In this document: one piece after another, positions 31,353-54,995 of the stretch
Layout of the letters: every line of letters starts with the position of its first letter
Numbering within the stretch: the stretch's first letter is position 1
Origin: Planctomycetota bacterium
GTDB lineage: Bacteria > Planctomycetota > Phycisphaerae > SM23-33
DNA: 64,000 nt
Assembly: GCA_029553505.1 (NCBI GenBank)
Contig: JAKPKY010000113.1
Location: 1 to 64,000 of the forward strand
Direction of reading: 5' to 3'
The notes under the pieces: generated by a model
Database searches by the model: none
Told to the model about the DNA's origin: nothing
Seen by the model: only the letters and a program-made list of their open reading frames with translations
Made by a program: the position numbers and the translations under genes

Positions 31353-31431
31353 GCAGGGATGAACACGGATGCACGCGGATCGCTGGTTTTCACAACCATT
31401 CTTATCCGCGTTTATTCCTGTTTATCCCTGC
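31353..31431. repeat. Bare palindromic GCAGGGAT element (28-nt arms, 23-nt spacer)
   Basis: Arms 31353-31380 and 31404-31431 match 23/28; same family flanks rusA-like gene. Confidence 0.85.
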
Positions 31432-50613: not shown

Positions 50614-52359
50614 TTAGTCCACCACGGGCACCGGGCCCGCCAGCACCTCGAACTCGTCCACCGGTGCGAGGTTCCCGGAGCAGGCCTGCTCCTTCAGCAT
50701 GCGGATTTCCGGCATGCGCCAGGCGAGCCAGTACTTCGCCAGCGGAAGGCGCTCGGGGTCGGCGGCCGCGTGATCGCAGAACAGCGACGCCACCACCAGG
50801 TACACGCCGATGTCCACCAGCCGGCGGGCGTGCAGGTCGCGGTAGGCGGTTCCCGGCTGGGCCTTGACGAACTCCACCGCCTCGTCCAGCAGCGCCAGTC
50901 CAACACGGATTTCCTCAACGAGCGGGGCGACCTCTTCCGGCCAGTCGCGGGCGATCAGCTCCTCGACGATCGTGTGGCACGTCCCGCTCACCACGCCGGC
51001 GACGGCAGCGACCACCTGAAGCTGGCTGGTGCCCTCGTAAATGGTGGTGATGCGGCTGTCACGCAGGTGCCGCTCGACGGAATAGTCCTTCATGTATCCG
51101 CTGCCGCCGAGCACCGCGATGGCGTCGTTGGACACCCGCATGGACATTTCCGACGCGTAGTACTTGCTCATCGGCGTGAGCACTTTGTTGGCGCGTCCGT
51201 ACTTGCGGGCTTCGGTGCGGAGGTCCTTCTTCTCGGTCGGGTCGGTGACGTTCCCGAACTCGAGCTTCCGCAGCGCGCCGTTCTCCAGGTCCACGCAGTA
51301 CGCGCCGTGGTAGGTCAGCGCCCGGGCGGCCAGCAGGTCCACGCGGCTCTTGACCAGCAACTCGCGGACGGCGGGGAAGTTCTCGATGGCGGTGTCGAAC
51401 TGCTTACGGCTGTGGGCGTAGTCGCGGGCGACGCGGTAGGCCGCCTCGCCGATGCCCAGGCTCTGCGCGGCGATGCCCACGCGCGCCCCGTTCATCAGGC
51501 TCATGACGTAGGTGATCAGCCCGCGCTGGCGCTCGCCGATGAGCTTGGCGGGCGTGTGGTCGAAGAAGATCTCGCACGTCGGGCTTCCGTGAATGCCCAG
51601 CTTGTTCTCCAGGCGGCGGATCTTGACGGTGTCGTCGTTGCGGCAGACCAGCAGGCTCAGTCCCCGCCCGTCGGAGATTTCCGGCTCGGTGCGGGACAGC
51701 ACCAGCAGCACCTCGCCGCAGCCGTTGGTGATGAACCGCTTGACGCCGTGGATGAACCAGTTGCCCTGGTCGTCCTGGTAGGCGCGGGTCTTGACGGCCT
51801 GCAGGTCGCTGCCCGCGTCGGGCTCGGTGAGAACCATGGCGCCGGTCCACTCGCCGCTGGCCATCTTCGGCAGGTACTCCTGCTTGATCTCCTCGGACGC
51901 GAAGGCGTTGATCGTGTCGGCGTTGCCCTGGAGCCCGTAGATGTTCATCAGCGAGGCGTCGGCGCGGGAGACCATGTCGTTGGTCATGGTGAACAGCACC
52001 TGGGGGCAGTTGATCCCGCCGAAGCGGTACGGAAGGGTGAAGCCCATCAGGTCGGCCTTCGCCAGCAGGCGGATCGCCTGGGCGATGCCCGGCGCGCGGG
52101 TGACCGTTCCGTCCTCGTTGAGCTGGTTGCCCGCCAGGTCGGTGTCTCCGGCGGTCGGGGCGATGTGCGAACCGGTGATCTCGCCCAGGGAATCGAGGAT
52201 CCGCTCGTAGTTGTCCACCGCGTCGGCTGCGTCGGCGGGCGCGAAGTCGTACTCCTTCGCGAAGCAGAAGCCCTCTTCCTGGATCGCCGCGATCCGCTTG
52301 AGGTTCATGTGATGAAAGAGGAATTGAATATCCTCATTGTCTCGGTAGAAATTGGCCAT
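50614..52359 (-). CDS. Acyl-CoA dehydrogenase
   Basis: MVLTEPDAGSDLQAVKTRA, FITNGCGEVLLVLSRTE, GGSGYMKDYSVERHLRDSRITTIYEGTSQLQV. Confidence 0.94.
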   Translation of the reverse strand: MANFYRDNEDIQFLFHHMNLKRIAAIQEEGFCFAKEYDFAPADAADAVDNYERILDSLGEITGSHIAPTAGDTDLAGNQLNEDGTVTRAPGIAQAIRLLAKADLMGFTLPYRFGGINCPQVLFTMTNDMVSRADASLMNIYGLQGNADTINAFASEEIKQEYLPKMASGEWTGAMVLTEPDAGSDLQAVKTRAYQDDQGNWFIHGVKRFITNGCGEVLLVLSRTEPEISDGRGLSLLVCRNDDTVKIRRLENKLGIHGSPTCEIFFDHTPAKLIGERQRGLITYVMSLMNGARVGIAAQSLGIGEAAYRVARDYAHSRKQFDTAIENFPAVRELLVKSRVDLLAARALTYHGAYCVDLENGALRKLEFGNVTDPTEKKDLRTEARKYGRANKVLTPMSKYYASEMSMRVSNDAIAVLGGSGYMKDYSVERHLRDSRITTIYEGTSQLQVVAAVAGVVSGTCHTIVEELIARDWPEEVAPLVEEIRVGLALLDEAVEFVKAQPGTAYRDLHARRLVDIGVYLVVASLFCDHAAADPERLPLAKYWLAWRMPEIRMLKEQACSGNLAPVDEFEVLAGPVPVVD

Positions 52360-52377: not shown

Positions 52378-52405
52378 GCAGGGATAAACGCGGATGCACG
52401 CAGAT
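52378..52405 (+). repeat. Left arm of inverted repeat flanking the rusA-like gene
   Basis: GCAGGGATAAACGCGGATGCACGCAGAT; 25/28 to 31353-31380. Confidence 0.85.
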
Positions 52406-52419
52406 AAAAATTTGTTCTC

Positions 52420-52893
52420 TTATCCTAACATTGAAACTCGTACACACGCACCTGATTGCTCGTGGACCTTACCACACTGGCATTTTTCTTGTTGGCCTAC
52501 ACATCTCTTTTCCAACACTAGTTTCACAACGCGATCATCGTCACACTTCGCCAATGCGCCCTGGACTTTACAGGCACATTTAATTCCGCTTTCTTTGAAG
52601 CCTTTGCTGCCTTCCACCTGCGAATTGTGAGACACAAAGAGCGCGTCCAGCACAGGTTTAACCAGATTGTCAAGATCACCGCTAGATTTCAGTGGATTCG
52701 GCATCCAGAATGTTACTTCCACATCAAAGAGATTGTTATCTGCGGCCTGCCAACCATTTTCTTTCGCTTTTTTGGCGGCAGTAACTACCGCTTCTCTCCA
52801 TTTCCATTGCTTGCTACTACCCCACGGAACAGGTTCTCCTTCTCCTCCGGGTACAAAGAAAACGATCTCCCGTGCGTGAGATTTCGCTGTCAT
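52420..52893 (-). CDS. RusA-like Holliday junction resolvase
   Basis: GDLDNLVKPVLDALF ... DDDRVVKLVLEKR matches RusA DxDN/DD..K pattern; AT-richer than flanks. Confidence 0.75.
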   Translation of the reverse strand: MTAKSHAREIVFFVPGGEGEPVPWGSSKQWKWREAVVTAAKKAKENGWQAADNNLFDVEVTFWMPNPLKSSGDLDNLVKPVLDALFVSHNSQVEGSKGFKESGIKCACKVQGALAKCDDDRVVKLVLEKRCVGQQEKCQCGKVHEQSGACVRVSMLG

Positions 52894-52909
52894 CTTGTAC
52901 CTTTTTTCT

Positions 52910-52937
52910 ATCCGTGTTCATCTGCGTTCATCCCTGC
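52910..52937 (-). repeat. Right arm of inverted repeat flanking the rusA-like gene
   Basis: Reverse complement GCAGGGATGAACGCAGATGAACACGGAT, 23/28 to left arm. Confidence 0.85.
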
Positions 52938-52983
52938 CTGTACGCTCATCCCTGCGGGATTCCGGCAGTTCGGACCCTTCGGG

Positions 52984-54042
52984 CTATTTGCACTTTTCCG
53001 CCAGCGATTCGACCTTCACGCCGCCGCGGACGGCCTTGATGATCTTGGGAACCACCACGTTCAGGTCGCCCACGATGCCGAAATGGGCGATGGAGAAGAT
53101 CGGCGCGTCGGGGTCGTTGTTGATCGCGAGGATCTTGGCGGCTTCCTGCATGCCCGCGCGATGCTGGACGGCGCCGCTGATGCCCGCGGCGATATACAGC
53201 GCCGGGCGCACCGTGGTTCCGGTCTGCCCGACCTGGTGGTCGTGGTCGATGAAGCCAAGGTCCACCGCGGCGCGGGATCCGCCCACCGCCCCGCCGAGCG
53301 CGTTGGCCAGGTCCCACAGGGGACGAAAGTTTTCGCGGCTGCCCACGCCCGCCCCGCCCGCGACGATGATCCGGGCCGCCTTGAGGTTCACCTTCTTCTC
53401 ACGCCGGTGGCTTTCCTCGATCGTCAGCGGAAGCGTCACGCCGTCCAGGTCGGCCTTGACGCGGACGATCTCGCCCTTGCGCGACGCGTCGGCGGCGGGC
53501 ATGTGCATCACGCCTTCGCGCACTGTCGCCATCTGGGGCCAGCGGCTCGGGTTGACGATCGTCGCGATGATGTTTCCGCCGAACGCCGGGCGGATCTGGA
53601 ACAGCAGGTTCTTGTGCTCGACCTTGGAGACCGGGTCGCTGTGGTCGCCGATCTGGAGGTCGGTGCAGTCGGCCGTCAGCCCGCACTTCATGGCCGACGC
53701 CACCGTGGGCGCCAGATCGCGCCCGATCGGCGTCGCGCCGTACAGGCACACCTGCGGCTTGTACTGCTCGATCAGGCGGCAGATGAGGTGACAGTAGCCT
53801 TTCGCCTGGTAGTGCCCCAGGCGCTCGTCCTCGGCAAGGTACACCTTGTCGGCGCCGTGGGCGATCAGCTTGCTCGCCAGCGGCGCGACGTTCTTGCCCA
53901 GCAGGACGGCCGCCAGCGGAACGCCCAGCGTGCACGCCAGTTCCTGCCCCTTGCTCATCAGTTCCAGCGGAACGTCCGACAGTTTGCCGTCTTCCTGCTC
54001 GGCAAAGATCCAGACTTCGCCTTTTCGGTTGACTTCGATCAT
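52984..54042 (-). CDS. etfA: Electron transfer flavoprotein subunit alpha
   Basis: GGAGVGSRENFRPLWDLANALGGAVGGSRAAVD, GQTGTTVRPALYIAAGISGAVQHRAGM. Confidence 0.94.
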   Translation of the reverse strand: MIEVNRKGEVWIFAEQEDGKLSDVPLELMSKGQELACTLGVPLAAVLLGKNVAPLASKLIAHGADKVYLAEDERLGHYQAKGYCHLICRLIEQYKPQVCLYGATPIGRDLAPTVASAMKCGLTADCTDLQIGDHSDPVSKVEHKNLLFQIRPAFGGNIIATIVNPSRWPQMATVREGVMHMPAADASRKGEIVRVKADLDGVTLPLTIEESHRREKKVNLKAARIIVAGGAGVGSRENFRPLWDLANALGGAVGGSRAAVDLGFIDHDHQVGQTGTTVRPALYIAAGISGAVQHRAGMQEAAKILAINNDPDAPIFSIAHFGIVGDLNVVVPKIIKAVRGGVKVESLAEKCK

Positions 54043-54071
54043 CGTGTTTCCTTGGGTAACTCGTTAACTGG

Positions 54072-54995
54072 TTAACCGATCGTATGCTCTTCGATCAACT
54101 CGCCGATCAGGCGGGCGATGCCTTCGTCGTTCGGCGGGAATTCCTTGTATTCCCCGCCGGTCAGCACCACCGACTGGATGCGGTGCACCTTGGTCGGGCT
54201 GCCGCTCATGCCGCACCAGGCCAGGTCCGCGCCCAGATCGTCCAGGTTCCACTGCTCGATCAGCAGGCCGCGCTCGGCAAGCTTTCCGCAGTGCTTTTCG
54301 ACCTCGGCGGCCTTCAACTCGGCCGTGTAGTTCTCGAAATCGCCCTCGAGGATGTGCTCGGCCTTGGCCTGCACCTCGGCCTTGGACAGGGCCTTCTTGT
54401 ACTTCATCAGCCTCTTGGCCGCCTGGGGACGCGGCGTGTTGGCGCTCTCCATCACGGTCACCAGCGCGGGCATTGGGCAGGAGACGATTTCCCAGCCGTT
54501 GCCGACATTGCGCTTCAGGCGGATCGTCCGCTCGCGGCAGCCGAGGAACTCCTCCATGTACGTCACCAGGTTATAGCCCAGCTTTTCCGCCAGCTGCGGG
54601 CCGACCTGCGCGGTGTCTCCGTCGATCGCCTGCCGCCCGCAGAACACCAGGTCGGCGCCGAGCTTTTTGACGGCGCAGGAGAGGATGTAGCTGGTGGCGA
54701 GGGTGTCGGAAGCGGCCGCCCGGCGGTCGGTGATCAGCACGGACCGGTCGGCCCCGCGGAAGAGGCTCTCGCGGAGGACGGCGCAGGCGGCGGGCAGGCC
54801 CATCGTCACCACGGTGACGGTCCCGCCGTACTGGTCGCGGACGGCCAGCGCCGCCTCGAGGGCGTTCAGGTCCTCGGGGTTGAACACGGCCGGCAACGCC
54901 GCCCGGTTGACCGTTCCGTCTTCCTTCATCGCCTCGCCGGTGATCTTCTTGGTGTCCGGCACCTGCTTGACGCAAACCACGCAGTTGTATCCCAC
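54072..54995 (-). CDS. etfB: Electron transfer flavoprotein subunit beta
   Basis: CVKQVPDTKKITGEAMKEDGTVNR, LVFCGRQAIDGDTAQVGPQLAEKLG. Confidence 0.94.
   Translation of the reverse strand: MGYNCVVCVKQVPDTKKITGEAMKEDGTVNRAALPAVFNPEDLNALEAALAVRDQYGGTVTVVTMGLPAACAVLRESLFRGADRSVLITDRRAAASDTLATSYILSCAVKKLGADLVFCGRQAIDGDTAQVGPQLAEKLGYNLVTYMEEFLGCRERTIRLKRNVGNGWEIVSCPMPALVTVMESANTPRPQAAKRLMKYKKALSKAEVQAKAEHILEGDFENYTAELKAAEVEKHCGKLAERGLLIEQWNLDDLGADLAWCGMSGSPTKVHRIQSVVLTGGEYKEFPPNDEGIARLIGELIEEHTIG

Follow-up and report, generated by a model that had tools for sequence, protein, structure and literature searches.

A RusA-like gene as a possible unusual occupant of a dispersed palindromic arm–nuclease element

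Organization of the RusA locus

The window, a 64,000-nucleotide stretch of DNA from a Planctomycetota bacterium, contains a RusA-like open reading frame (ORF) that is enclosed between a 28-nucleotide arm and its inverted copy (Table 1). The ORF is separated from the arms by 14 nucleotides (positions 52406–52419) and 16 nucleotides (52894–52909), in agreement with the initial annotation of this DNA, which also correctly placed the ORF between the genes encoding acyl-CoA dehydrogenase and the etfA/etfB pair (52984–54995), all of which are on the minus strand. The space between the arms has room only for the RusA-like ORF and contains no RAYT (Y1 transposase) gene. The arms start with GCAGGGAT, and their ends carry neither a GTAG nor a CGTC tag. 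A bare palindrome of these arms is present elsewhere in the window, as had been annotated: both arms of the RusA locus and the arm at 31353–31380 match a joint degenerate consensus with zero mismatches, and the number of matches expected by chance is 0.00 (100 shuffles). Fold computation predicts that the bare palindrome forms a long hairpin as single-stranded DNA (−22.2 kcal/mol, z −7.3), and no known RNA family was found at its position.

Table 1 Features of the RusA locus and of the bare palindrome in the window.
Feature	Position	Strand	Remark
Entire loaded element (RusA-like gene between arm and inverted arm)	52378..52937		Ortholog with the same arms in congener
Left 28-nt arm, GCAGGGATAAACGCGGATGCACGCAGAT, 10-nt units	52378..52405	+	
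Right 28-nt arm, GCAGGGATGAACGCAGATGAACACGGAT on minus strand	52910..52937	-	
RusA-like ORF, 157 aa, AT-rich	52420..52893	-	DLDN...K and DD motifs align with RusA
Partial extra arm start (GCAGGGATGAGCGTACAG), directly outside right arm	52938..52955	-	Common to congener
Bare element: two arms with 23-nt loop between	31353..31431		
Acyl-CoA dehydrogenase gene (acd), host gene adjoining element	50614..52359	-	
etfA, host gene on the other side of element	52984..54042	-	
etfB, after etfA	54072..54995	-	

Proteins of the RusA family resolve four-way junctions, and the catalytic acidic residues and lysine of the Escherichia coli enzyme are D70, D72, K76, and D91. Judged by its sequence, the product of the ORF is a divergent RusA. 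It matches the Pfam family PF05866 with 26.5 bits, above the cut-off of 22.8, and the copy from a congener (G001) scores 18.7 bits, which is below the cut-off. Residues D73, D75, and K79 and the DD motif of the window protein are in register with other RusA proteins in an alignment, and one of these proteins aligns in turn to the solved E. coli enzyme (1q8r). The dN/dS ratio of the ORF between the window species and the congener is 0.21, which indicates that the protein is maintained by selection. The G+C content of the ORF is 47.5%, compared with 66.4% for the window, so that its description as AT-rich in the initial annotation is accurate. The structure model of the protein is poor (mean pLDDT 53), and a fold search with this model returned no credible match. 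In the congener, an ATG located within the arm can serve as the start of the reading frame (MNTDRE..., L027:2950-2985); several proteins of the GxxExxY nuclease family also seem to start with arm-encoded residues.

Copies of the repeat in the genome

The genome that includes the window is a 2.5-Mb draft that is 73% complete; all the genomes used in the analysis are drafts. The arm core GGGATNAACNCNGAT, referred to as GAT-type, has 26 matches in the draft, mostly in inverted pairs, and the reversed-pattern control has 0. Of the GAT-type copies that were read, approximately nine are bare, consisting of an inverted pair separated by a short loop, four are pairs with a filling, and four are arms that are single or decayed. 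The fillings are the RusA-like gene of the window, a gene of a GxxExxY PD-(D/E)XK nuclease (C198; PF13366, 131 bits), a 227-residue HEPN-like ORF with its best Pfam match under the cut-off (C72), and a second palindromic repeat (C99). Another arm family, composed of 9-nucleotide CACAGAG-type units (pattern CRCRGAG), has 101 matches, compared with two for the reversed control; many of its copies are bare pairs, and one (C145) is loaded with a GxxExxY gene. Palindromes of the CACAGAG-type are nested in or positioned beside GAT-type arms at L012:1500-1672 (C99) and in L015 (C139). The elements contain no transposase, no target-site duplication is visible beside the GAT-type copies that were read, and no transposition event was seen.

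The same sites in related genomes

The flanks of sites common to the window genome and the congener are approximately 90–97% identical. Most palindromes occur in both congeners and look old and decaying. Clean empty sites from which target duplications could be defined were sought within the genus and not found, the palindromes being mostly shared or the sites rearranged. The site that contains the HEPN-like ORF (C72) is bare in the congener, where the same arms and flanks surround a 41-nucleotide loop. Loaded and bare forms are alternative states of this one orthologous site, which bears out the earlier proposal of empty and loaded versions of a single element.

The RusA site is loaded in both species, and its filling is excessively divergent: the RusA gene has a dS of 0.65 between the two species, compared with values of 0.161, 0.13, and 0.115 for etfA, acd, and the GxxExxY gene that fills the C198 copy, respectively. 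From both sides, the sequence identity drops from 93–100% to mostly 76–82% on entering the arms. One 60-nucleotide block within the RusA gene is 97% identical between the species, as if the gene had been partly converted. The simplest reading of these differences is an exchange of the RusA filling in one or both lineages; alternatively, part of the high dS may stem from a low-GC3 gene evolving faster.

The initial annotation had suggested comparing the acd–etfA locus in close relatives for an empty site. Outside the genus, 14 of 19 other genomes with an etfA–acd pair, from the same family, order, and class, have a clean junction of 20–82 nucleotides. The simplest interpretation is therefore that the block of arm, RusA, and arm was gained within this genus. 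The remaining five genomes contain different inserts of 284–876 nucleotides, and the junction thus appears to have taken inserts more than once. One of these inserts, at the junction of an order-level relative (L095 in G026), is a four-helix-bundle-like gene between inverted tandem-unit arms, with both the gene type and the arms read by eye. Other relatives have further inserts at the junction (L088, L092, L093, and L101).

Genes located between inverted arms

A gene was considered to have arms if its flanks contained an inverted repeat with a score of at least 14, a threshold that was chosen after the first data. Arms were present at 29 of 30 GxxExxY genes in a first sample and at 100 of 120 loci in an enlarged one, in which the remaining 17% had no arms above the threshold. 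The corresponding value for shuffles, which preserve base composition only, was one in 360; the stronger guard is provided by control genes, and arms were found at none of 21 etfA and two of 30 HicA genes. Inverted tandem-unit arms also flank 25 of the 30 sampled four-helix-bundle genes (PF05635), a set that, like that of PF13366, consists of the best-scoring matches and could favor some subtypes. Genes of the two kinds occur within approximately 2 kb of each other at G000:C194 37694-39322, in G135:C237 and G090:C78, and in G131:C1 near position 3453000.

Outside the phylum, plasmid-borne GxxExxY genes have arms in Bacteroides, Bernardetia, and Sphingomonas; those of Gemmatirosa and Persicobacter are without arms, and those of Fusobacteria and Treponema are under the threshold. 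The flanks of two copies from viral contigs resemble arms. The first copy has a score of 26. The second has a downstream arm that overlaps the end of the gene and a score within the range of the shuffles, and its arms are identified by reading the sequence only. The GxxExxY structure obtained from these two copies is poor (pLDDT 36.5).

Three other kinds of gene were considered as regular cargo of the arms and rejected. Among 30 RusA loci of the phylum, the locus in the window is the only one with arms (0 of 29 others), and neither a phage match nor a viral-contig relative was found. HicAB is excluded by its frequency of two in 30, which is the same as the background. None of five relatives of the HEPN-like ORF has arms; for one of these (L384), hardly any upstream sequence is available. 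A HicA/HicB-like pair is positioned between GAT-type arms at L064:9198-10060 (G142:C13), with several more arm pairs within 10 kb.

The initial annotation had suggested testing whether other arm pairs carry RusA homologs, and had named a lack of arms at RusA homologs elsewhere as evidence against its proposal. That lack is what the 29 other loci display, and among the arm pairs examined in 40 relatives, only the one at the same locus of the congener encloses RusA. RusA is probably not the owner of the arms. RusA and this type of HEPN have been seen in arms only here, and their presence may be accidental.

Arm type and nuclease lineage

The units of the arms belong to the types GAT, GAG, AAG, AAT, and others. 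When these are placed on a tree built from 79 GxxExxY proteins, 21 changes of type are required, compared with 42.4 for shuffled types (0 of 200 shuffles), the count being approximate as the tree is based on few columns and has many open forks. Because the relatedness of genomes could produce such a match, the types were permuted only within the 16 genomes that contain several of them; the mean was 32.8 changes, and none of 2000 permutations was as low as 21. Across 149 genomes, the presence of GAT-type arms is associated with that of GxxExxY (Fisher p 3e-5, without correction for relatedness). The type of arm unit thus follows the nuclease tree even within genomes. Such co-segregation shows joint inheritance of arms and nuclease and says nothing about binding of the arms by the nuclease. 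No description of the association was found in the open-access literature searched; the publications found there that mention GxxExxY do not deal with repeats, and the repeat-related work found is that on REP/RAYT and on rRNA intervening sequences.

Proposed mechanism and alternatives

Taken together, the observations suggest that the palindromes are single-gene cassettes with swapped contents, the usual nuclease of which evolves together with the arms. With moderate confidence, the RusA locus can be explained as one of the loaded copies of a palindromic element that is dispersed in the genome and has constant arms, in which an arm-matched GxxExxY nuclease that acts on the arms is the usual gene and RusA is a passenger. 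The constant part of such an element is the pair of inverted arms, composed of 9–10-nucleotide tandem units and enclosing either a short loop, as in the bare majority of copies, or a single gene. This gene is usually that of a GxxExxY PD-(D/E)XK nuclease of a lineage matched to the arm type; in the window, the slot is held by the putative divergent junction resolvase. The matched nuclease may recognize the arms, either in the form of duplex arrays or when folded into a cruciform or hairpin, and cut or nick the DNA there. Repair or recombination could then copy the palindrome, or the content between its arms, into other arm copies, and bare palindromes would be non-autonomous copies served in trans. 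The RusA gene could have entered as a passenger by arm-to-arm exchange, perhaps favored because a junction-cutting enzyme may do a similar job, which would make it a substitute or a passenger in the element.

More tentatively, elements of this kind may be widespread in bacteria as transposase-free selfish elements, in which GxxExxY reads the arms of its own palindrome and spreads bare palindromes in trans, with a slot that RusA or other small genes can occupy. A sister class would consist of four-helix-bundle genes, which have arms of their own with a shorter period. This would provide a candidate function for GxxExxY, a common nuclease family without an assigned role in the open-access literature searched, as well as a possible source of the palindromic repeats that abound in bacterial genomes. 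Since the arm type predicts the nuclease lineage, matched and mismatched pairs offer a direct test of recognition. The RusA swap can serve as a natural experiment to ask if the activity in common is that of cutting junctions.

A less probable, still credible account dispenses with an enzyme belonging to the arms: single genes would be swapped in and out of old dispersed repeats by host homologous recombination between arms or by breakage of hairpins. It accommodates the alternation of bare and loaded states, the strongly diverged filling at a fixed site, the variety of fillings (RusA, HEPN-like, HicAB-like), and the lack of a transposase inside; however, it does not predict the near-constant packaging of GxxExxY between arms or the match of nuclease lineage and arm type within genomes. 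It is improbable that this arm family has RusA as its autonomous enzyme, in a minimal mobile element able to resolve its own cruciform. The junction-resolving activity of the family, the catalytic-type residues kept in the ORF, its purifying selection, and the predicted strong hairpins of bare arm pairs would fit such an element, but it is confined to a single locus in two congeners, the other RusA loci lack arms, and arms of this family enclose GxxExxY as well in the same genome. Of the earlier idea that a nuclease is the own gene of the element, the part concerning a nuclease agrees with GxxExxY as the usual occupant, and that concerning RusA is not supported. Least probable of all is chance: a horizontally acquired RusA gene would have come to lie between two older repeats that are unrelated, or a foreign gene would be surrounded by arms that are only transcription terminators. 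The ORF is AT-rich relative to its host and repeats are common in the genome, but the arms fit the ORF at distances of 14 and 16 nucleotides, and control genes lack arms. Simple insertion, raised in the initial annotation, is unlikely, given that arms and gene are missing together from other genera and that other genes are found in the same arrangement; the gene may nevertheless have been exchanged into a palindrome that was already there.

Comparison with known systems

The window protein shares the Pfam match and the DLDN...K and DD motifs with RusA Holliday-junction resolvases (PF05866; 1q8r). Unlike them, it lacks the PPSxN start and has an insertion of approximately 24 extra residues and a Cys-rich tail. 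With arm-flanked members of the GxxExxY family (TIGR04256/PF13366), the usual occupants of such arm pairs, the locus shares inverted arms of 9–10-nucleotide units near both ends of one gene; it differs in that the gene is RusA-like, GxxExxY being located in the C198 copy of the same arm family. Mobile insertion cassettes are similar in that a passenger gene lies between mobile ends and no transposase is present. A distinguishing mark of these cassettes is that their ends are those of a known insertion sequence.

The intervening sequences of 23S rRNA, which carry an S23 four-helix-bundle ORF (PMC4990558), resemble the locus as small selfish elements with one short ORF. However, the cases in the literature are within rRNA genes and encode a different protein, and the arms of the PF05635 genes sampled here have a period of approximately 6–8 nucleotides by eye, in contrast to the 9–10-nucleotide units of the element in the window.

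By behavior, the nearest known system is that of REP/REPIN palindromes, which form REPtrons with RAYT tyrosine transposases (PMC3116915, PMC3733652). Both systems are intergenic and combine many bare palindromes with a few copies that flank one gene, and in both the repeat type goes with the gene lineage. By contrast, the gene here encodes a PD-(D/E)XK nuclease, or RusA in the window, rather than an HUH transposase, and the arms are arrays of 9–10-nucleotide units without the GTAG/CGTC tag. Because the defining RAYT gene is absent, the RusA locus is compared with REP/RAYT and kept outside that class. On this reading, the arm–nuclease element may work like REP/RAYT without the RAYT, and RusA is an unusual occupant of it.
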